Positions 3,296 through 17,302 of a stretch of 21,398 bases of DNA are shown here, one piece after another. Source of the stretch: a virus; the IMG/VR virus record IMGVR_UViG_3300031787_009930, positions 1 to 21,398 of that record. One strand, 5' to 3'. The position numbers and the translations under genes were made by a program. How positions within the stretch are numbered: the first letter of the stretch is position 1; each line of letters begins with the position of its first letter. Under the pieces are notes generated by a model. That model was not told where the DNA came from. It worked only from the letters and a program-made list of their open reading frames with translations, and did no database searches.

Positions 3296-5608
3296 ATGAG
3301 TAAATTTGAATCTATATTAAAAAGTTTTCATTCTAAAGACAATCTTAATTCTAAGATTTGGAAAGAAAGTGGAAATGACATAACTATTAATCCTACAGTT
3401 AGAAAAAAACTTTTGGAAATTGCTAATGAATTTATTGAATTCCTAAAAGTTGATATTGTAGTTTCTTACATTATTATGACAGGTTCTTTGGCTAATTATA
3501 ATTGGTCAGAATTTTCAGATATTGATTTACATATTGTTGTTGATTTTGAACAATTTAGTAAAGAACAGTTACCATTATATGAAGAACTTTTTAGATTAAA
3601 AAAGACCTTATTCAATGACCAACATGATATCACAATTTATGGTTATGAGGTTGAATTATATGTTCAAAATGAATCAGAATCTCATTTTAGTAGTGGAGTT
3701 TTTTCAGTATTAAACGATGAATGGATTGTTGAACCAAAAAAAGAAGATGTAAAAATTGATATTGGTTTAATAAAAAATAAGGCAGAACAATGGATGAAAA
3801 TTATTGACGGTGTTATTGAAAACGCATCGGATGAACCACTTGATGAAGCTAAAAAAATCATTTCAAAATATAAGGATAAATTAAAAAAATATAGAACCTG
3901 TGGGTTAGAATCAGGTGGGGAATATTCTGATGAAAATTTAGTTTTTAAAATTTTAAGAAGAAATAACTATATTCAAAAGTTATTTGATTTTGAGGTTGAA
4001 ATGGAGGATAAAGAACTTTCTTTAAATGAAAGTAGAATGAAAAAAATAATACTTGAAGGTTCTAAAGATAGTTTAGACCCAAGTGTATTAAAAGCGTTAC
4101 AATCTGTTGAAACTACTTACGGAGTAAAAATAACTGATGATAATGTCAATGATGAATTAGCTCAAGAAAAACAAATCTACCCCGATAATTCAGGAATAGA
4201 TTCTTCAGCGTTATCCCAATTAAAAAAGTTATTATCTGATTTATATTCTAAATTCCCAAATGCACCTGAAGATTCTAACAGTAATTGTGATGGAGTTAAG
4301 GGTTGTGTTTCAGGATATAGAGGATATTCTACACAAGTTAAAACTTTTGGTAGTAAAATCAGTAGAGATGGTGGTGTCTCTAATAGACAAAAATTTTCAG
4401 CTTTACCAGGATTTTCTCAACATCACACAGGTAAAGGATTTGACATATTAAGTGTTGAACCATCATGGTGGAATAAAAATTCTGACATTAAATCATGGGT
4501 TGCTAATAACGTGTGTAAGTATGGATTTAAAGTATCTTATCCAACGGACGGAGTTTTAAGAAGTGCCGAACCTTGGCATTTATTTTATACTGGACAATTT
4601 TGTGGTGGAGATAAAGAAGAAAAAACTGTTGAGAAAGAAAAAACAGTAGAAAAAGAAAAATCATCTGAAATAGTTAAAACTGAAAAAGGTGATTTAATAT
4701 CCGACATAACAAATTTTTCAAAAAGTTCACGAGTATTAACTAATTTAAAAAAAGAAGGTGGTAGATTATCTTTCAATCAGGAAGTTCAAAATTTACAAAA
4801 AGCTTTACAATTTTTAAAATATTCTTTACCAAAATGGGGGGCTGATGGTAAATTTGGTAATGAAACAGAATCAGCATTAAAGAAATTTGAATCCGCAAAT
4901 GGATTAGAAGAAGATGGTAAATTTGATTCTGAAGATGCGGAAATTTTAGTTAAAAAGTTAATTAGTTCAGGATACGAAAAAACTGATGACCAACAAATAC
5001 AAGTAACTCCAAGTGAAGTGGAAAAAGATAAAGTTGTTGCAACTACAACTAATGATGATGAATATGTTGTTTTAATTCCACCAAACTATCAGGGTAAAAA
5101 TGTTCACGTATTATTTGGAGGTTCTCATACATCAGGGTATTCAAAAAATAGTTTTAAAACTGAAGCTATACAAAAATATGGTAATATTTTGAAACCTTAT
5201 GCTACTAACACTATAATTGTGGTAACACATCATATGAATACCGTAAGTAATGTGCAAAAATATGTTAGTGAAAAATACGGTGCAAATGTTACATCTCTCG
5301 CAGGGTTTTCACAAGGTGGTAAAGAAGCTTGGAGACACGCATCAGATAGTTCATATAAATTAGTTGGGTTAATTGACCCATCAACATATCAGACAGATGT
5401 TCAGTTTGGTAGTGGTACTTATTTATACTGCGACCCTAAAAACTGGGGGAAAACAGGATTTTACGGAGAGACAAGGAAAAAATTAGAATGGTATTGTGAT
5501 AACAAAGAAAAATATTCTGGTCACGTAACTTGTTTTGATAAAGGTGGATGGCATATGAATTTTGGTATTTTAAAATCGTTCTACGACACATACGGTTCAA
5601 TGATTTAA
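3296..5608 (+). CDS. Four-domain fusion: nucleotidyltransferase, VanY-like peptidase, peptidoglycan-binding, serine hydrolase
   Basis: A 770-residue protein. (1) Residues ~35-145: nucleotidyltransferase fold with G63-S64 and D75-x-D77 (GSLANYNWSEFSDID). (2) Residues ~295-432: D,D-carboxypeptidase/endopeptidase of the LAS/VanY type, with Zn ligands H376, D383 (SQHHTGKGFD) and H428, and catalytic E425 (SAEPWH). (3) A charged linker with TVEKEK repeats, ~437-462. (4) Residues ~493-555: PG_binding_1 domain (VQNLQKAL, GADGKFGNET). (5) Residues ~588-770: alpha/beta-hydrolase-like domain with nucleophile elbow G670-F-S672-Q-G-G, probable D694 and H753. LNESRMKKIILEG at 243-255 looks like an old N-terminus joined to the first domain. 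No signal peptide or membrane helix. Likely a virion or lysis enzyme that cuts host peptidoglycan; the job of the first and last domains is unknown. Domains 2 and 4 are the firmest. Confidence 0.8.
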   Translation: MSKFESILKSFHSKDNLNSKIWKESGNDITINPTVRKKLLEIANEFIEFLKVDIVVSYIIMTGSLANYNWSEFSDIDLHIVVDFEQFSKEQLPLYEELFRLKKTLFNDQHDITIYGYEVELYVQNESESHFSSGVFSVLNDEWIVEPKKEDVKIDIGLIKNKAEQWMKIIDGVIENASDEPLDEAKKIISKYKDKLKKYRTCGLESGGEYSDENLVFKILRRNNYIQKLFDFEVEMEDKELSLNESRMKKIILEGSKDSLDPSVLKALQSVETTYGVKITDDNVNDELAQEKQIYPDNSGIDSSALSQLKKLLSDLYSKFPNAPEDSNSNCDGVKGCVSGYRGYSTQVKTFGSKISRDGGVSNRQKFSALPGFSQHHTGKGFDILSVEPSWWNKNSDIKSWVANNVCKYGFKVSYPTDGVLRSAEPWHLFYTGQFCGGDKEEKTVEKEKTVEKEKSSEIVKTEKGDLISDITNFSKSSRVLTNLKKEGGRLSFNQEVQNLQKALQFLKYSLPKWGADGKFGNETESALKKFESANGLEEDGKFDSEDAEILVKKLISSGYEKTDDQQIQVTPSEVEKDKVVATTTNDDEYVVLIPPNYQGKNVHVLFGGSHTSGYSKNSFKTEAIQKYGNILKPYATNTIIVVTHHMNTVSNVQKYVSEKYGANVTSLAGFSQGGKEAWRHASDSSYKLVGLIDPSTYQTDVQFGSGTYLYCDPKNWGKTGFYGETRKKLEWYCDNKEKYSGHVTCFDKGGWHMNFGILKSFYDTYGSMI

Positions 5609-9687: not shown

Positions 9688-11448
9688 ATGACTAAAGAAC
9701 AAGTAATGATTGAGTATGTAAGATGTATGAAAGATACACCTTATGCTCTTAAAACGTATTTACAAACTTACGATAATACTGTGTCAAGATATGTTCCATT
9801 GGAACTATTTCCTGACCAAATTAGTTTGTTAAAAGATTATGAAGATTATAACGAAAATATTGCTTTAAAATATAGACAGGCGGGTGTATCTACAGTAACC
9901 GCTGCTTGGGTTTCAAAAAAATTAGCATTTGCTAAAAAAATAAAACCTGAAAAGATTTTGATTATTGCCAATAAACTTGATACATCACAAGAAATGGCAA
10001 ACAAAATCAGAGCGTTTATTGGTCAATGGCCCGACTGGGTTGGTATTGATTTTGCCGCTGAAAAAAATTCACAAAAACATTATAAATTAAATAATGGATG
10101 TGAAGTTAAGGCGGTTGCGACATCTAAAGATGCCTTGAGAGGTTTTACTCCGACCATATTGATTTTTGACGAGGCGGCCTTCATTGAGGCCGATAGTGAT
10201 TTTTGGGCGGCTTGTATGGCATCCCTATCTACGGGTGGTAAAGTAATAGTTGTGTCAACACCAAACGGGTATGACCCAATCTATTATGAAATTTACGACC
10301 AAGCAAACAGAAATATGAATGACTTCAAAATTTCTGAAATGTATTGGTATCGTGACCCAAGATACACAAGAGATTTATATATGGTTAAGACAAAAGATAT
10401 TATTCATTATCTTTTGAATAAAGAAGAATATAATGTTAGTGATATTATTAGTTGGGAACCAATAGAATTTTCAGATAGGAACTATGATGATTTAAAAAAA
10501 ATTATTGAGGACGGTTACAAACCATGTTCGGCTTGGTTTGAAAGTATGGTGAAAAAACTTAAGTACGACAAACGTAAGGTTTCTCAAGAGTTAGAGTGTA
10601 ATTTCTTAGGTTCGGGTGATAACGTATTTGATTCTAATATGATGCAAAATATTAGAGAAAATATGATTCGTGAACCACAAAACAAGATGATGGGAAACTC
10701 ATTATGGATATGGAAGGAACCTGTATTAGGTCACAAGTATGTTATGGGTGTTGACGTTTCAAGGGGAGATAGTGAGGACTTTAGTTCTTTCCAAATCATT
10801 GATTTTGATGAGAGAGAACAGGTTGCGGAATTTGTTGGAAAACTACCTCCTGATACTATGGCTGAGATATGTTATAAGTGGGCAAATATGTATTCTTGTT
10901 TCATCGTGATAGATATTACGGGTGGTATGGGTGTTTCCACGTCAAGGAAATTACAAGAAATGGGTTATAAAGATTTATATGTTGATGGTGTTGACACAGC
11001 AAATAAATGGAAATACGACCCAAAGGCAACTGAAAAAATTCCTGGAATCAATTTTAATAATAAACGTGTTCAAATAATTGCGTCGTTTGAAGAGGCATTG
11101 AGACATGAATTTAAAATTTATAGTTCAAGATTGTTCAACGAAATGAATACATTTATTTATGTTAATGGACGACCTGACCACCAAAAAGGACAACATGATG
11201 ACTTGATTATGTCACTAGCTATGGCTTGTTATGTTGCTGAATCTTCATTTACAAGTTTAAAAAGAGTTACCGAACAAACAAAGGCGATGTTGGATTCATG
11301 GAGTGTTGCCAATAACGATAATGTTAGTAAACAAATTGAATTCAATCCTGTAATACCAACTCTTACTGATAATATGAATCAATCAAGTAGGAATAGTTAT
11401 TCAAAAGAGGATTATATGAAATACGGTTGGCTATTTGGAGTTAGGTAA
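9688..11448 (+). CDS. Terminase large subunit (T4 gp17-like)
   Basis: Packaging motor ATPase and headful nuclease. Motifs in order: variant Walker A RQAGVST at 63-69 (no lysine after the glycine; the arginine at the front may replace it, as in many phage terminases), Walker B ILIFDEAAF at 158-165 with D161 and E162, and coupling motif VVSTPNG at 188-194. The RNase-H-like nuclease domain starts at about 350, with acidic residues D356 (MGVDVSRGD), D409 (IVIDITGG) and D504/D505 (GQHDDLIMSLA). The length (586) is close to T4 gp17 (610). It is preceded by a terminator and a TATTTAT motif, and its stop is immediately followed by the next motif and gene. Assignment is secure. No small terminase is recognisable in the window. 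Confidence 0.97.
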   Translation: MTKEQVMIEYVRCMKDTPYALKTYLQTYDNTVSRYVPLELFPDQISLLKDYEDYNENIALKYRQAGVSTVTAAWVSKKLAFAKKIKPEKILIIANKLDTSQEMANKIRAFIGQWPDWVGIDFAAEKNSQKHYKLNNGCEVKAVATSKDALRGFTPTILIFDEAAFIEADSDFWAACMASLSTGGKVIVVSTPNGYDPIYYEIYDQANRNMNDFKISEMYWYRDPRYTRDLYMVKTKDIIHYLLNKEEYNVSDIISWEPIEFSDRNYDDLKKIIEDGYKPCSAWFESMVKKLKYDKRKVSQELECNFLGSGDNVFDSNMMQNIRENMIREPQNKMMGNSLWIWKEPVLGHKYVMGVDVSRGDSEDFSSFQIIDFDEREQVAEFVGKLPPDTMAEICYKWANMYSCFIVIDITGGMGVSTSRKLQEMGYKDLYVDGVDTANKWKYDPKATEKIPGINFNNKRVQIIASFEEALRHEFKIYSSRLFNEMNTFIYVNGRPDHQKGQHDDLIMSLAMACYVAESSFTSLKRVTEQTKAMLDSWSVANNDNVSKQIEFNPVIPTLTDNMNQSSRNSYSKEDYMKYGWLFGVR

Positions 11449-11455
11449 TATTTAT
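11449..11455 (+). promoter_or_regulatory. TATTTAT motif directly after the terminase stop
   Basis: AATATTTATGACTAATG: the motif begins right after the terminase TAA (11446-11448) and ends 5 bases before the ATG at 11461. It matches the context at 3284-3298 at nearly every base. Confidence 0.4.
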
Positions 11456-11460
11456 GACTA

Positions 11461-14400
11461 ATGGGATTTTCATCAAGAAAGAGAACAAAAAGTATTTACA
11501 TGGGGTCAAAGTTAAGTGTCCCTGGTCAAGGTATATATACGGCTAAATTAACTCCGTCTGAAAAGACTCAAGTTAACATACAAACTAATAGAGAACCAAG
11601 ACCATCGTCAACACCAAAACCGGTGGTAAGTTCAACTCCTACACCGACACCAACTCCTAGTACAAGTCCTGTAAGTGTAACACCAACACCAACAGTAACT
11701 ATTTCAGTTACACCTACTTTAACACCAACTATTTCAGTTACACCTACTTTAACCCCAACACCAAGTCCTTCATTTATACCACCAACACCATTTATCGGTA
11801 TATGGAGAACAACAGGGTCTTCTGAAACTATTACATTACCATTCAAAATTAGTGGAACGTATAGTGGAACAATTGATTGGGGTGATGGTAATACATCAGT
11901 TAACTCATATGGTAATAGAATACATATCTATGATACCCCAGGTGACTACACTGTAACAATATACGGAGTGGTAAATGGTTTTGGATATGTGTTTGATGAT
12001 ATTGGAAGTGGTGAAACTTTAAAATTAATAGAGATTCAACAATGGGGGGCCCAATTTAATTTAGGTAGTGATTATAACTATGGTCGTTTTATGGGATGTT
12101 CAAATTTAACTTTAACAGGAGTTACTGATACATTAAATCTTAATGGTACTATTGATATCATGGCAATGTTCTCGGATTGTAGTAATATTACGACAATACA
12201 AAATATTAATAATTGGGACGTTAGTAACATTAACAATCTATTATTTATGTTTAAAGATACACAATTTGACCAAGATATAAGTGGTTGGGATGTTTCAAAC
12301 GTTACTAATATGAGAGGTATGTTTTATAATTCATCATTCAATCAAGATATTAGTGGATGGAATGTGTCGGGAGTTACCGATATGTTTAGTATGTTCCAAG
12401 GTACACAATTTAATCAAGATATAAGTGGTTGGGATGTTTCAAACGTTACTAATATGTCAGGTATGTTTAATAATACACCATTTAATCAAGACATTAGTGG
12501 ATGGGATGTATCCTCTGTGACAAATATGGGTTTTATGTTCCTATCAACACCATTTAACCAAGATATTAGTGGATGGGACGTTTCAAAGGTAACAAATATG
12601 GGTCAAATGTTTCAAAATTCATCATTCAATCAAGATATTGGTAAATGGAATGTGTCTGGAGTTACAGATATGGGTTCCATGTTTTGGTCAGCATTGTCAT
12701 TTAATCAAGATATTAGTGGTTGGGATGTTAGTAATGTAACAAGTATATTCGGTATGTATGGTATGTTTTTTAGTGCCACGTCATTTAACCAAGATTTAAG
12801 TAGTTGGTGTGTACCATTAATACCTTCATTACCTCCATTTTTTGACGATAACACACCTTCTTGGGTACTACCTAGACCAAATTGGGGAACTTGTCCACCA
12901 TTTATTAGTATTTGGAGAACAACTTCACCAAATGAAACTATAACATTACCATACGAAAATACAGGAACATATGATGGTACTATTGATTGGGGTGACGGTA
13001 ACACTTCAGGTAATTCATATTCAAATAGAACACATACTTATTTAACACCTGGTGATTATACAATAACAATATCAGGTGATTGTGTTGGTTTTAGATTTAA
13101 CGATAGTGGTGATGATACAAAAATTAGAGAAATTACTCAATGGGGTAGCAAATTTAGATTAGGTAATAATGGATATTATTTTGCGGGATGTTTTAATTTA
13201 GTTTTAACAGGTGTTACTGATGTATTAAATTTACAAGGAACAGATAACTTAACAAGTATGTTTGTAGGATGTAGTCAAATAACTACTGTTAATAGAATGG
13301 ATGAATGGGATGTCTCAAATGTAATAAATATGAATTCAATGTTCCTTAATGCAACTAGTTTTAATCAAGACATTAGTAGTTGGGATGTTTCTAATGTTAC
13401 GATTATGACAGCAATGTTTTTAGGTACACTATTTAACCAAGACATTAGTAGTTGGGATGTTTCAAGTGTAACAGATATGGGAAGTATGTTCTCATTTTCT
13501 CAATTTAATCAAAATATAAGTTTATGGAATGTGTCAGGAGTTACTAATACTTCATTTATGTTTGCGATTACACTATTTAACCAAGATATTGGAGTATGGG
13601 ATGTCTCAAATGTTACTTACATGTATGGTATGTTCCAAGGTTGTGTACCATTCAACCAAGACATTAGTAGTTGGGACGTTTCTAATGTTACCAATATGGA
13701 TTACATGTTTTATAATACATCATCATTTAATCAAGATTTATCTTATTGGTGTGTAGCATTAATCCCTTCATTACCTGACAACTTTGACACAGGAGCATCT
13801 TCATGGGTATTACCTAAACCAGTATGGGGAACTTGTCCCACACCTCCATTTATTAGTATATGGGACACTACTAAAACTTCAGCAGGGTCATCAAGTTCTA
13901 ATCAGGTGTCTCTACCTTTAGACTCATTTGGAATTTATAATGGTACTATTGATTGGGGTGATGGTAATATTAGTGCGAATACTTTCGCAAATAAAACTCA
14001 TACGTATTCATCACCAGGTGTTTATACAATAACCATATCAGGGACAAGTATTGGATTTGGTCCATTTAATAATGGTGGTGATAGACTTAAATTGATTGAA
14101 ATAACTAAATGGGGAAATTTTACTTTTCAAGGAACTTCTTTACAAGGTTATTGGTTCTCAGGATGTCAAAATTTAAAATTATCTGGAGTTACCGACTCTA
14201 TTACTTTAGGTTTTACAACTGATTTAACTTCAATGTTTAATAATTGTACTTCATTAACTACAATAAACAACTCAAATAATTGGGATGTGTCAAGTGTTCA
14301 ATTTATGGGTAATATGTTTTTAAATTGTAATCAGTTTAATGATTCAGGTATTACATCTTGGGATGTGTCAAACGTAACTAATATGAATGGTATGTTTTTT

Positions 14401-14532
14401 CTTAACACATTATTTAACCAAGATTTAAGTGGGTGGTGTGTTCCATTAATACCGTCATTACCAACAAACTTTGATACCGCCGCAACTTCTTGGGTATTAC
14501 CTAGACCAATTTGGGGAACTTGTCCACCTTAA
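11461..14532 (+). CDS. BspA/DUF285 repeat protein with three PKD-like modules, probable virion adhesin
   Basis: A 1023-residue protein. A basic head (MGFSSRKRTK) with no signal peptide is followed by a Thr/Pro/Ser linker (~48-108) and three modules starting at about 111, 481 and 797. Each opens with FI(S/G)IW, a PKD-like beta domain with TIDWGDGN and GDYT(V/I)TI, then 24-residue DUF285/BspA repeats (FNQDISGWDVSNVTNM type), and closes with a W-C-V ... WGTCP cap whose two cysteines may pair. Repeat numbers are about 8, 6 and 2. Such proteins are usually secreted, surface-attached proteins of Bacteroidota and Firmicutes; here there is neither an export signal nor a sorting domain, and it sits between terminase and portal. 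A capsid- or tail-borne host-binding protein is the best guess (inference). Alternative: a morons-type cargo gene released by lysis. Confidence 0.85.
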   Translation: MGFSSRKRTKSIYMGSKLSVPGQGIYTAKLTPSEKTQVNIQTNREPRPSSTPKPVVSSTPTPTPTPSTSPVSVTPTPTVTISVTPTLTPTISVTPTLTPTPSPSFIPPTPFIGIWRTTGSSETITLPFKISGTYSGTIDWGDGNTSVNSYGNRIHIYDTPGDYTVTIYGVVNGFGYVFDDIGSGETLKLIEIQQWGAQFNLGSDYNYGRFMGCSNLTLTGVTDTLNLNGTIDIMAMFSDCSNITTIQNINNWDVSNINNLLFMFKDTQFDQDISGWDVSNVTNMRGMFYNSSFNQDISGWNVSGVTDMFSMFQGTQFNQDISGWDVSNVTNMSGMFNNTPFNQDISGWDVSSVTNMGFMFLSTPFNQDISGWDVSKVTNMGQMFQNSSFNQDIGKWNVSGVTDMGSMFWSALSFNQDISGWDVSNVTSIFGMYGMFFSATSFNQDLSSWCVPLIPSLPPFFDDNTPSWVLPRPNWGTCPPFISIWRTTSPNETITLPYENTGTYDGTIDWGDGNTSGNSYSNRTHTYLTPGDYTITISGDCVGFRFNDSGDDTKIREITQWGSKFRLGNNGYYFAGCFNLVLTGVTDVLNLQGTDNLTSMFVGCSQITTVNRMDEWDVSNVINMNSMFLNATSFNQDISSWDVSNVTIMTAMFLGTLFNQDISSWDVSSVTDMGSMFSFSQFNQNISLWNVSGVTNTSFMFAITLFNQDIGVWDVSNVTYMYGMFQGCVPFNQDISSWDVSNVTNMDYMFYNTSSFNQDLSYWCVALIPSLPDNFDTGASSWVLPKPVWGTCPTPPFISIWDTTKTSAGSSSSNQVSLPLDSFGIYNGTIDWGDGNISANTFANKTHTYSSPGVYTITISGTSIGFGPFNNGGDRLKLIEITKWGNFTFQGTSLQGYWFSGCQNLKLSGVTDSITLGFTTDLTSMFNNCTSLTTINNSNNWDVSSVQFMGNMFLNCNQFNDSGITSWDVSNVTNMNGMFFLNTLFNQDLSGWCVPLIPSLPTNFDTAATSWVLPRPIWGTCPP
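12211..12813 (+). repeat. DUF285 array 1, about 8 units of 72 bp
   Basis: Units are 24 codons (72 bp), each with W-D/N-V-S ... M-F-F-N-Q-D. Within it, 42 bases at 12271-12312 recur exactly at 12415-12456 (144 bp = 2 units apart), and 24 bases at 12328-12351 recur at 12616-12639 (288 bp = 4 units). Units 2 and 6 also share the NVSGVTDM variant, which suggests block duplications. Confidence 0.9.
13303..13752 (+). repeat. DUF285 array 2, about 6 units
   Basis: Same unit as array 1, mostly as FNQDISSWDVSNVT. Units are more diverged at the DNA level than in array 1. It ends in the cysteine cap of module 2. Confidence 0.85.
14275..14430 (+). repeat. DUF285 array 3, about 2 units
   Basis: The shortest array: two full W-D-V-S units, one with an inserted DSGITS segment, then the cap motif of module 3. 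Confidence 0.8.
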
Positions 14533-14581: not shown

Positions 14582-16381
14582 ATGGAAAACAATCAAAATA
14601 ATCAATTAACGGTTTGGCAAAAATTATCCCAAGCATTTGGGCCTAATTCTTTACTGAATCAAGATTATCCAACTTACAAATACGATAAAGAGGAATTATT
14701 AAAAACCACTTCTAAACAAGAATTTGATAAAGAACTTTTACAAGCTCAACAAACATATTATTTAGCAAATCAGTGGACTAAAATTGAAAGTAATTTATAT
14801 ACTCAAGCAGTATATTACGAACCAACTCGTTTAGCGTCGTTCTATGATTACGAGTCAATGGAATATACTCCTGAGATATCTGCAGCTTTAGATATCTATG
14901 GTGAAGAATCAACAACTGTTGACCAAAATGGTTATATGTTACAGATTTATTCTGAATCAAAACGTATCAAATCAATCTTGGCGGATTTATTTAACAACGC
15001 ATTAGACTTAAACACCAATTTACCTATGTGGACAAGAAACACATGTAAGTATGGTGATAACTTTGTTTACTTAAAATTGGACGCTGATAAGGGAGTTGTT
15101 GGATGTATGCAATTACCAAACATTGAGATTGAACGTCTTGAAAGGGGTATGGCTGCAAAATCTCAAAATGTTGACGAACCAAAAGAAAATAAAGGTTTAA
15201 GATTTAAGTGGAAGGCTAAAGACATGGAATTTAATTCATGGGAAATGGCTCACTTTAGATTATTAGGTGATGATAGAAAACTTCCTTATGGTACTTCTAT
15301 GTTAGAAAAAGCAAGACGTATTTGGAAACAATTATTGTTGTCTGAAGATGCGATGTTGATTTATAGAACGTCAAGAGCACCTGAAAGAAGGGTGTTTAAA
15401 GTCTTTGTTGGTAACATGGATGATAAAGATGTTGAACCGTATGTACAAAGAGTTGCCAATAAGTTCAAAAGGTCTCAAGTTGTTGATAGTAACACAGGTA
15501 ATGTAGATATGAGATTCAACCAAATGGCGGTTGACCAAGATTACTTTATACCTGTTCGTGATGCTGCGGCAGCAAGTCCTATTGATACTTTACCTGGTGC
15601 TCAGAACCTTTCTGAGATTGCCGATATCGAATATATCCAAAAGAAATTATTAACAGCTCTTCGTGTTCCTAAAGCGTTTTTAGGGTTTGAAGAAGTAGTT
15701 GGTGATGGTAAAAATTTATCATTACAGGATATTCGTTTTGCAAGAACAATTAACAGAATTCAAAAATGTATGATTGCAGAGTTAAATAAAATTGCAATTG
15801 TTCATTTATTTATTTTAGGATTTGAAGATGAGTTAAATAATTTTACTTTAGCACTTACAAATCCATCGACACAAGCTGACTTACTTAAAATTGACGTTTG
15901 GAAAGAAAAAATACTTCTATACAAAGACGCAGTTACCGCTATTGAGGGTATTGCTCCTGTATCTGTTTCTTGGGCTAAGAAACATGTTTTAGGATTCTCA
16001 GATGAAGAAATTAAACTTGATTTACAACAACAACGTATTGAAAAAGCGGTTGGTGCTGAGTTAACTAACACCGCAACAATCATTGCTCACACTGGAATAT
16101 TTGATAACGTTGATAAACTTTATGGAACTAAGTCAGGTAGTACCTCATCTGCGGGAACCACACCTCCACCACCACCTGGTGGTGAATTAGGAGGAACACC
16201 AACGCCACCACCGGCAGGAGGACCTGAAGGAGGATTACCTGAAAGTGAGAAAAAAGATAATTACAATATTCTTTTAGAATCTGACGGTTTCATTGATGAT
16301 GATTCTTTCATTGATTTATCAAGAGGAAAAAATTATTTAGGTGAGATTGAAGAACAATTGAGTAAAATATTAAGAGATTGA
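14582..16381 (+). CDS. Portal vertex protein (T4 gp20-like)
   Basis: A dodecameric portal that nucleates prohead assembly and forms the DNA channel docked by the terminase. At 599 residues it is slightly longer than T4 gp20 (524). Family-like features: the N-terminal EPTRLASFYDYESMEYTPEI segment with SAALDIYGEES (~80-110), a central wing and stem region, and the conserved TLPGAQNLSEIADIEYIQKK then LLTALRVPKAFLGF (~338-371), typical of gp20 proteins. The C-terminal tail has a Pro/Gly-rich stretch (~523-552), then LPES and LLES, possible prohead-protease cuts, and ends in a helix. It follows the DUF285 gene and precedes an unknown gene at the place where T4 has genes 67/68. Assignment is secure. 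Confidence 0.93.
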   Translation: MENNQNNQLTVWQKLSQAFGPNSLLNQDYPTYKYDKEELLKTTSKQEFDKELLQAQQTYYLANQWTKIESNLYTQAVYYEPTRLASFYDYESMEYTPEISAALDIYGEESTTVDQNGYMLQIYSESKRIKSILADLFNNALDLNTNLPMWTRNTCKYGDNFVYLKLDADKGVVGCMQLPNIEIERLERGMAAKSQNVDEPKENKGLRFKWKAKDMEFNSWEMAHFRLLGDDRKLPYGTSMLEKARRIWKQLLLSEDAMLIYRTSRAPERRVFKVFVGNMDDKDVEPYVQRVANKFKRSQVVDSNTGNVDMRFNQMAVDQDYFIPVRDAAAASPIDTLPGAQNLSEIADIEYIQKKLLTALRVPKAFLGFEEVVGDGKNLSLQDIRFARTINRIQKCMIAELNKIAIVHLFILGFEDELNNFTLALTNPSTQADLLKIDVWKEKILLYKDAVTAIEGIAPVSVSWAKKHVLGFSDEEIKLDLQQQRIEKAVGAELTNTATIIAHTGIFDNVDKLYGTKSGSTSSAGTTPPPPPGGELGGTPTPPPAGGPEGGLPESEKKDNYNILLESDGFIDDDSFIDLSRGKNYLGEIEEQLSKILRD

Positions 16382-16400: not shown

Positions 16401-17117
16401 ATGAAATTCGGTATTTTAAAATCAAAAGTTGATAGAAGATTATTAGAATCTTACTCTAATCAAACTTTCCAAAAAGAATTGAAAACATTCAAAAAATTAG
16501 TTTTGGAAAATTCAAACATAAGTAAATTGTTTTACTTGTATGATGAATTAAAAACTAATCAAGGTTTGAACGAATCTGTTCTTGAAGATTATATTAATGA
16601 GTGTACTAAAATTTATGAGAACACCATTAGTAAAATTAAACCACAATCTATTGAAAAAATCAAAGGTTGGGTTAAGAATATCAATTCAAAAAATGATTAT
16701 GAAGATATTGATAATTTATTCTCAAAAAATGTTCTTACTATTGAATCTAAAATCAAAAGTAAAAATCTTATTAAAGAATCTTTAAGTAAAAAATCTATAG
16801 ATAAAAAAGAACCTATCAAGATTCCAATTTCTTCTATGATTAATGTTGCAAACAACACTATTAAAAATTATATTGAAAATTTAAATGAGACTGAAAAAAA
16901 AGAACTTATTAAATTTTTGAATACTGATGAAAAAGAATTGGAAGTAAAATTTGAAACTTTAAAAGAGAATGTTGTAAAAAAATTAAACGTAATTAAAGAA
17001 TCTGAAAATGATTCAGAAGTTATCACCAAAATTGATGAAACAATTAAGACGGTTAATTCAGAAAAATACGACAAACTTAATTACTTCAAATTATCGGATT
17101 TAAACGATAATCTTTAA
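16401..17117 (+). CDS. Helical phage protein between portal and protease, probable prohead core component
   Basis: A 238-residue, Lys/Glu/Asn-rich, almost wholly helical protein with no known domain. The N-terminus (MKFGILKSKVDRRLLESYSN, then LVLENSNISKLFYLYDEL) looks conserved. Four (L/I)-x-E-S sites are visible: LLES at 14-17, LNES at 56-59, IKES at 124-127 and IKES at 198-201. Position after gp20 and before gp21 corresponds to T4 gp67/gp68, which are prohead core proteins cut by gp21; the high charge and the sites fit that, but sequence homology cannot be shown here. Its stop overlaps the bS21 stop by 3 bases (TTAA), with no hairpin between the convergent genes. Confidence 0.6.
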   Translation: MKFGILKSKVDRRLLESYSNQTFQKELKTFKKLVLENSNISKLFYLYDELKTNQGLNESVLEDYINECTKIYENTISKIKPQSIEKIKGWVKNINSKNDYEDIDNLFSKNVLTIESKIKSKNLIKESLSKKSIDKKEPIKIPISSMINVANNTIKNYIENLNETEKKELIKFLNTDEKELEVKFETLKENVVKKLNVIKESENDSEVITKIDETIKTVNSEKYDKLNYFKLSDLNDNL

Positions 17118-17302
17118 TTCTCGTTTTTCATTTTCTGAACGTAAATTGCCTTATTGATTTGATTTCTACGATTAGTAGATTTTTTAACAAAAGTTTTACG
17201 GTTAATTAATTCCTGACTTTGACGAGTCTTAATAACCTTATTTTTCAATTGTTTTAAGGCTTTCTCTATTGATGTGTTTTTATCTAATTTAACTATTAAC
17301 AT
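17114..17302 (-). CDS. rpsU: Small-subunit ribosomal protein bS21
   Basis: A 62-residue basic protein. The start MLIVKL, a helix with IEKALKQLKNK (12-22), and KT...ELINRKTFVKKSTNRRNQINKAIY (25-54) follow the Bacteroidota bS21 pattern, as does the length (63-64 is usual). In Bacteroidota, bS21 with bS18 and bS6 holds the 16S 3' end so that the anti-Shine-Dalgarno sequence is hidden; Tyr54, which I recall as one of the contacting residues in the Flavobacterium structure, is kept at the same position. Phage bS21 genes are known from several phage groups. This gene is on the opposite strand to the head genes around it, with TAnnTTTG upstream instead of TATTTAT. No Shine-Dalgarno sequence precedes it, unlike the report, from memory, that flavobacterial rpsU has one used for autoregulation. 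Confidence 0.88.
   Translation of the reverse strand: MLIVKLDKNTSIEKALKQLKNKVIKTRQSQELINRKTFVKKSTNRRNQINKAIYVQKMKNEN

Follow-up and report, generated by a model that had tools for sequence, protein, structure and literature searches.

Why would a T4-like phage carry a protein of bacterial surface type between its terminase and portal genes, and what would such a protein do there? The question arises from a window of 21,398 nucleotides, the whole stretch of DNA that we analysed, which covers only 21 kb of the phage genome. An earlier sequence-only reading had placed an open reading frame (ORF) at 11461..14532 (+ strand, ATG start, 1,023 amino acids) in this position, had described it as a PKD plus DUF285 (BspA-type) protein without an export signal, and had suggested that it was a captured host adhesin for coating the virion or binding surfaces. 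It was correct about the ORF, which we recover exactly, about the domains, and about the missing signal, and it was probably right about virion display as well, so far as sequence comparisons can tell. We give about two chances in three to the reading that this ORF encodes a virion-displayed adhesin of an uncultured T4-like phage, with an N-terminal peptide for docking and an exchangeable tip.

Table 1. Organization of the terminase–portal junction in the window.
Feature	Position	Strand	Evidence
Terminase large subunit, T4-type	9688..11448	+	PF03237 1.6e-14; phrog_2 6e-40
Conserved N-terminal anchor peptide (about 45 amino acids), residues 1–45	11461..11595	+	stand-alone homologues; HMM; dN/dS
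Pro/Thr-rich stalk, residues 46–110	11596..11790	+	composition: P or T = 39/65 residues
Payload unit 1, residues 111–480: PKD + DUF285/BspA + C-terminal cap	11791..12900	+	
Payload unit 2, residues 481–794: PKD + DUF285/BspA + cap	12901..13842	+	
Payload unit 3, residues 795–1023: PKD + short DUF285/BspA + cap, stop codon	13843..14532	+	
Portal protein	14582..16381	+	phrog_213 3e-66

The ORF starts 12 bases after the terminase and ends 49 bases before the portal. Pfam finds DUF285 in seven stretches (E = 3e-178, far beyond chance), along with PKD_4 (E = 3e-11) and PKD (E = 2e-7). The match to PF03382, the family of the BspA-like/DUF285 repeat proteins, scores 582 bits (cut-off 25), and the repeat period is 24–25 residues, within the expected range of about 24–26. 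DUF285 and PKD are the only families among the Pfam matches, with no Ig families; PKD domains have an Ig-like fold. The sequence-only reading missed the 45-residue N-terminal peptide, the 65-residue Pro/Thr stalk, and the threefold arrangement of the units (Table 1). Each unit ends in a cap whose last residues are W-G-T-C-P (in unit 1, W-V-L-P-R-P-N-W-G-T-C-P). At the DNA level, there is a 30-bp tandem repeat in the stalk (11697-11759) and a 72/144-bp tandem array in unit 1 (12246-12729). Because three further viral contigs (L006, L008, and L037), from metagenomes with different numbers, encode the identical 1,023-residue protein, an assembly artefact is unlikely. An AlphaFold model of unit 2 (pLDDT 78, pTM 0.75) had no Foldseek match to the PDB below E = 0.9, while its leading matches in BFVD are mostly viral BspA-type, PKD, or surface proteins.

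The secretion signal that would be expected of a BspA-like bacterial surface adhesin is absent. We found no stretch resembling a signal peptide at the N-terminus, where the highest mean Kyte-Doolittle hydropathy over 19 residues is just 0.29, and what stands there is a phage anchor. The genes around the ORF (terminase, portal, and prohead protease) form a head and packaging block. Within that block lies a small ORF on the opposite strand (17114-17302) that weakly matches the ribosomal protein S21 family (phrog_21469, E = 1e-4); an S21 gene is annotated in this region of Microcystis phage Mel-JY01 too. Elsewhere in the window, the opposite strand encodes a ClpA/ClpB-type AAA+ ATPase (875-2917; phrog_4871, 9e-239), and an unusual endolysin-like fusion of 770 amino acids (3296-5608) joins a nucleotidyltransferase-like N-terminus to a VanY peptidase and a peptidoglycan-binding domain.

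In T4 itself, genes 18 (sheath) and 19 (tube) do lie between genes 17 and 20, as the sequence-only reading had it. The idea that our ORF has replaced them is wrong, because in this lineage both genes lie elsewhere, with or without the ORF. For example, in the cultured Flavobacterium phage immuto, the terminase and portal are directly adjacent and the sheath and tube are elsewhere, and in the uncultured relatives where we found them, the sheath and tube are tens of kb away.

The sequence-only reading had proposed checking this position in related phages. A scan with the terminase gave 510 relatives, and we examined the terminase–portal gap in the best 80 of the 510, most of whose contigs are fragments. 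The gap is 40–72 bp (empty) in one set and about 181–238 bp in most; in others it is 0.8–3.5 kb, and in one 272-kb contig it reaches 11 kb. In L060 the gap is only apparently long, as the portal gene is interrupted. (The insertion, at 9963-12707, is in frame and intein-type, begins CIHGDTKIATPNG and ends ATDSIFSHN, includes endonuclease-like sequence, and splits DYESMEY from TPEISAALD.) The long gaps hold a protein that starts with the anchor peptide and continues with a Pro/Thr stalk and a payload. PKD plus DUF285 is the payload in the window and in L007, L009, L010, and L126; L276 and, more weakly, L279 have propeller-like sequence ahead of it. L119 carries a beta-propeller. LamG-like payloads (L058, L035, L041, L103, and L114) are a weak assignment, with one sub-threshold Pfam match (Laminin_G_3 in L035) and an AlphaFold model of pLDDT 43. 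L120 and L121 have a second domain that looks lectin-like by eye and has no Pfam match, and L115 has repeated segments that we judged by eye to be Ig-like in appearance. Finally, L117, L118, and L123 have the stalk alone. Stalk length varies across the family. If the stalk acted as a recombination joint, long stretches of shared DNA might mark it; the longest DNA words that relatives share there are 10–22 bp, not clearly longer than those in the PKD segment.

The gaps of about 200 bp in relatives are filled by something much smaller: stand-alone peptides of 42–56 amino acids with the consensus MGLVxRKKSGKKFNGSKLNVPGQGIS.. The first 45 residues of the window protein have the corresponding motif (M-G-x-x-x-R-K..G-S-K-L-[NS]-V-P-G-Q-G-I), and its N-terminus is basic, with 9 K/R and 2 D/E among the first 50 residues. 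An HMM built from 33 stand-alone peptides, with all extended forms left out, matches the N-terminus of the window protein (E = 4e-12) and all 24 of 24 extended proteins, the window included (E = 6e-21 to 4e-12); the best unrelated control frame gave E = 0.99. For a scan with an anchor alignment we used a 7-row subset, as the 16-row alignment was too varied. Long contigs with the anchor have one clear copy per genome, at the terminase–portal junction (a further G007 match, weak at 12 bits, is left out of this count). Some long contigs, the 165-kb G002 among them, lack the anchor over their full length; like a decoration protein, it is therefore accessory. The consensus, as a query of only 41 amino acids, had no match among 50,697 deposited phage records, and we found no description of the peptide in open-access papers. 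We propose a new and, as far as we can tell from sequences and this literature, previously undescribed family: a peptide of about 45 residues at an N-terminus at the terminase–portal junction, alone or fused, as in the window. The interchangeability of its payloads appears to be unusual. Where the anchor stands alone it has nothing to display, which suggests that the peptide also has a role of its own.

Several comparisons indicate how this locus evolves. On a terminase tree of 79 rows, extended forms with differing payloads fall in several separate, well-supported groups, and the near-identical terminases of L155, L120, L117, and L115 are accompanied by different payloads. (The tree's counts of "none" and "head-only" are off by two rows, because L070 and L114 are labelled as anchorless and both carry the anchor.) The dN/dS ratio is 0.03–0.04 for the terminase, about 0.05 for the portal, 0.06–0.13 for the anchor (with few changes behind the anchor values), and 0.28–0.43 for the payload unit. 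By these ratios the anchor appears to be strongly conserved and the payload much less so. Within the window protein, units 1 and 2 share 62% identity, and either is about 50% identical to unit 3, while the PKD part of unit 3 is 82–87% identical to the single unit of the nearest relatives (L007/L009/L010/L126). These identities imply either a gain of two units from another lineage or a loss of them in the relatives. Comparison of the relatives shows the locus to be a plug-in site: phages retain the anchor, while the stalk and tip become longer or shorter or are swapped from one phage to another.

Did the payload come from the host? BspA/DUF285 proteins with PKD domains are common in Bacteroidota genomes, which speaks for a surface adhesin captured recently from Flavobacteriia and carried as cargo; the sequence-only reading had asked for a phylogeny of the modules against Flavobacteriia proteins. 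A tree of the PKD/first-LRR segment places every one of the window's three units in one starred group of 50 rows, which consists of 46 viral rows, the three from the window, and a single "bacterial" row; with the window, 49 of 50 are viral. The exception, L191 (CAIWBA010000291.1), is a contig of 254 kb that was assigned to a Bacteroidetes MAG, and the genes around its DUF285 protein are phage-like as judged by eye; it is probably a phage genome that was binned with the MAG. The units thus group with viral modules and not with those of Flavobacteriia, and the protein begins with a phage anchor instead of a signal peptide. We reject recent capture on this tree and find it barely credible overall. 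The tree was made quickly from best-scoring loci only and has many open forks, so it argues against a recent capture but is compatible with an ancient bacterial source, in which the units would derive from cellular BspA proteins.

How might the protein work? The basic N-terminal peptide would dock onto the particle, at the head shell or the neck if the gene block is a guide. Because homologues of the anchor have no known location, we infer docking from the position of the gene and from analogy with pb10 and Hoc. The composition of the stalk suggests that it keeps the payload off the surface, and the domain families suggest that the three PKD plus BspA-type units at the tip bind something external: perhaps glycans or proteins of the host surface, or particles and mucilage of the habitat. 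As the relatives show, phages retain the anchor while they swap stalks and tips at the plug-in locus. We favor display because a short anchor, a stalk, and exchangeable domains of binding type occur together within a head and packaging block. Fibre-like genes in the gap of relatives and related units on further large phage proteins point the same way, as does a LamG-like payload on a stalkless ORF about 10 kb from the sheath gene in G015.

Fibre-like genes and shared modules could also be taken to mean that the protein is a fibre or tail appendage, such as a baseplate or neck whisker, with the peptide attached to a protein of the tail or neck and the payload serving as a receptor- or co-receptor-binding tip. 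Fibre-like ORFs lie within the same gap in L111, L142, L115/L123, and L119; by eye they are of a low-complexity "PLSGGTVTG" type, with YadA head repeats in L119, and PHROGs gave no firm function for them. In G007, the PKD/DUF285 module is near tail-fibre-like genes, on another large protein whose N-terminus is unlike the anchor and has no match in deposited phage records. Against this, the gene block is one of head and packaging, and many relatives have nothing in the gap, so the protein is not an essential receptor-binding protein in them. We consider a tail appendage unlikely.

A protein that never joins the particle would be consistent with the absence of an export signal and with a stand-alone anchor that has no known structural role. 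It might act inside the cell or be released by lysis, in host takeover, as a decoy, or as glue for biofilms or aggregates, and the anchor would be an unrelated small phage protein that became fused to it. Yet one short N-terminus has been joined repeatedly, in separate terminase lineages, to a stalk and binding domains of extracellular type, which is hard to explain without a place of display. So we think that this is improbable.

Several such proteins can stand in a row. In the 272-kb contig, the space from terminase to portal is taken up by five ORFs in succession, the majority with a stalk or DUF285 repeats. The gap in G013 has five successive ORFs: an anchor protein and then four with a second, different short N-terminus (..ITFYPCSGGSINIGE..), one of which is only 69 amino acids long and has a 67-residue relative that stands alone in L115 and L123. 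Several stalk/DUF285 proteins in L359 (7322-15307) begin with a second family of short anchors (..ITFYPCSGGSINIGE..GTYxIYV), and the end of the final ORF resembles a Hint/intein domain. More broadly, it is an even bet that a large uncultured T4-like group uses one virion-docking peptide of about 45 residues and exchanges whole tips (BspA, LamG-like, or propeller) behind a stalk, with a five-ORF array in at least one phage. If display is correct, then these phages use a very short peptide as a natural tag to display payloads of up to about a thousand residues on the particle, and the locus is a record of the surfaces that environmental phages adapt to bind. The family is also a testable set, with one anchor, several natural payloads, and many naturally "empty" relatives as controls.

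Similar arrangements are known. In pb10 of phage T5, the N-terminal part binds the capsid, followed by a poly-Pro linker and an exposed C-terminal Ig domain (PMC5292684). The likeness to our protein is in the short conserved N-terminal part, the Pro-rich linker, the exposed C-terminal domain, and the status of a dispensable accessory. However, pb10 has 164 amino acids, a helical domain at its N-terminus, and a single Ig-like domain (PMC5292684), whereas the window family has an anchor of about 45 residues, which is alone in many relatives, and many unrelated payloads; here pb10 and the anchor are compared by description. T4 Hoc also combines a conserved attachment domain with variable exposed domains, for which environmental binding has been proposed, and a Hoc variant has its attachment domain at the N-terminus and a lipase-like payload (PMC10385173). 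The Hoc gene is in the head region too, but Hoc usually attaches by a C-terminal domain and has Ig-like tips, and no Hoc family is among the PHROGs matches of the window protein. DUF285 repeat domains occur on large proteins of Vibrio phage pir03 (PMC7765460), Aeromonas phage D3, and Synechococcus phage ACG-2014f as well; the anchor consensus does not match these in the deposited phage records, and we found no statement that they are in virions. Gut-phage adhesins with Ig, BACON, or PKD domains are modular, are encoded near structural genes, and confer adhesion when displayed on phage, according to one report, which deals with these three domains only and in which we found no description of a common short anchor at a set position (PMC13370021). 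By analogy, the window protein most likely works like Hoc or pb10, and we do not claim homology to either. Phage decoration and adhesin proteins are already known as a kind; the new element is the anchor, together with the exchange of what it carries.
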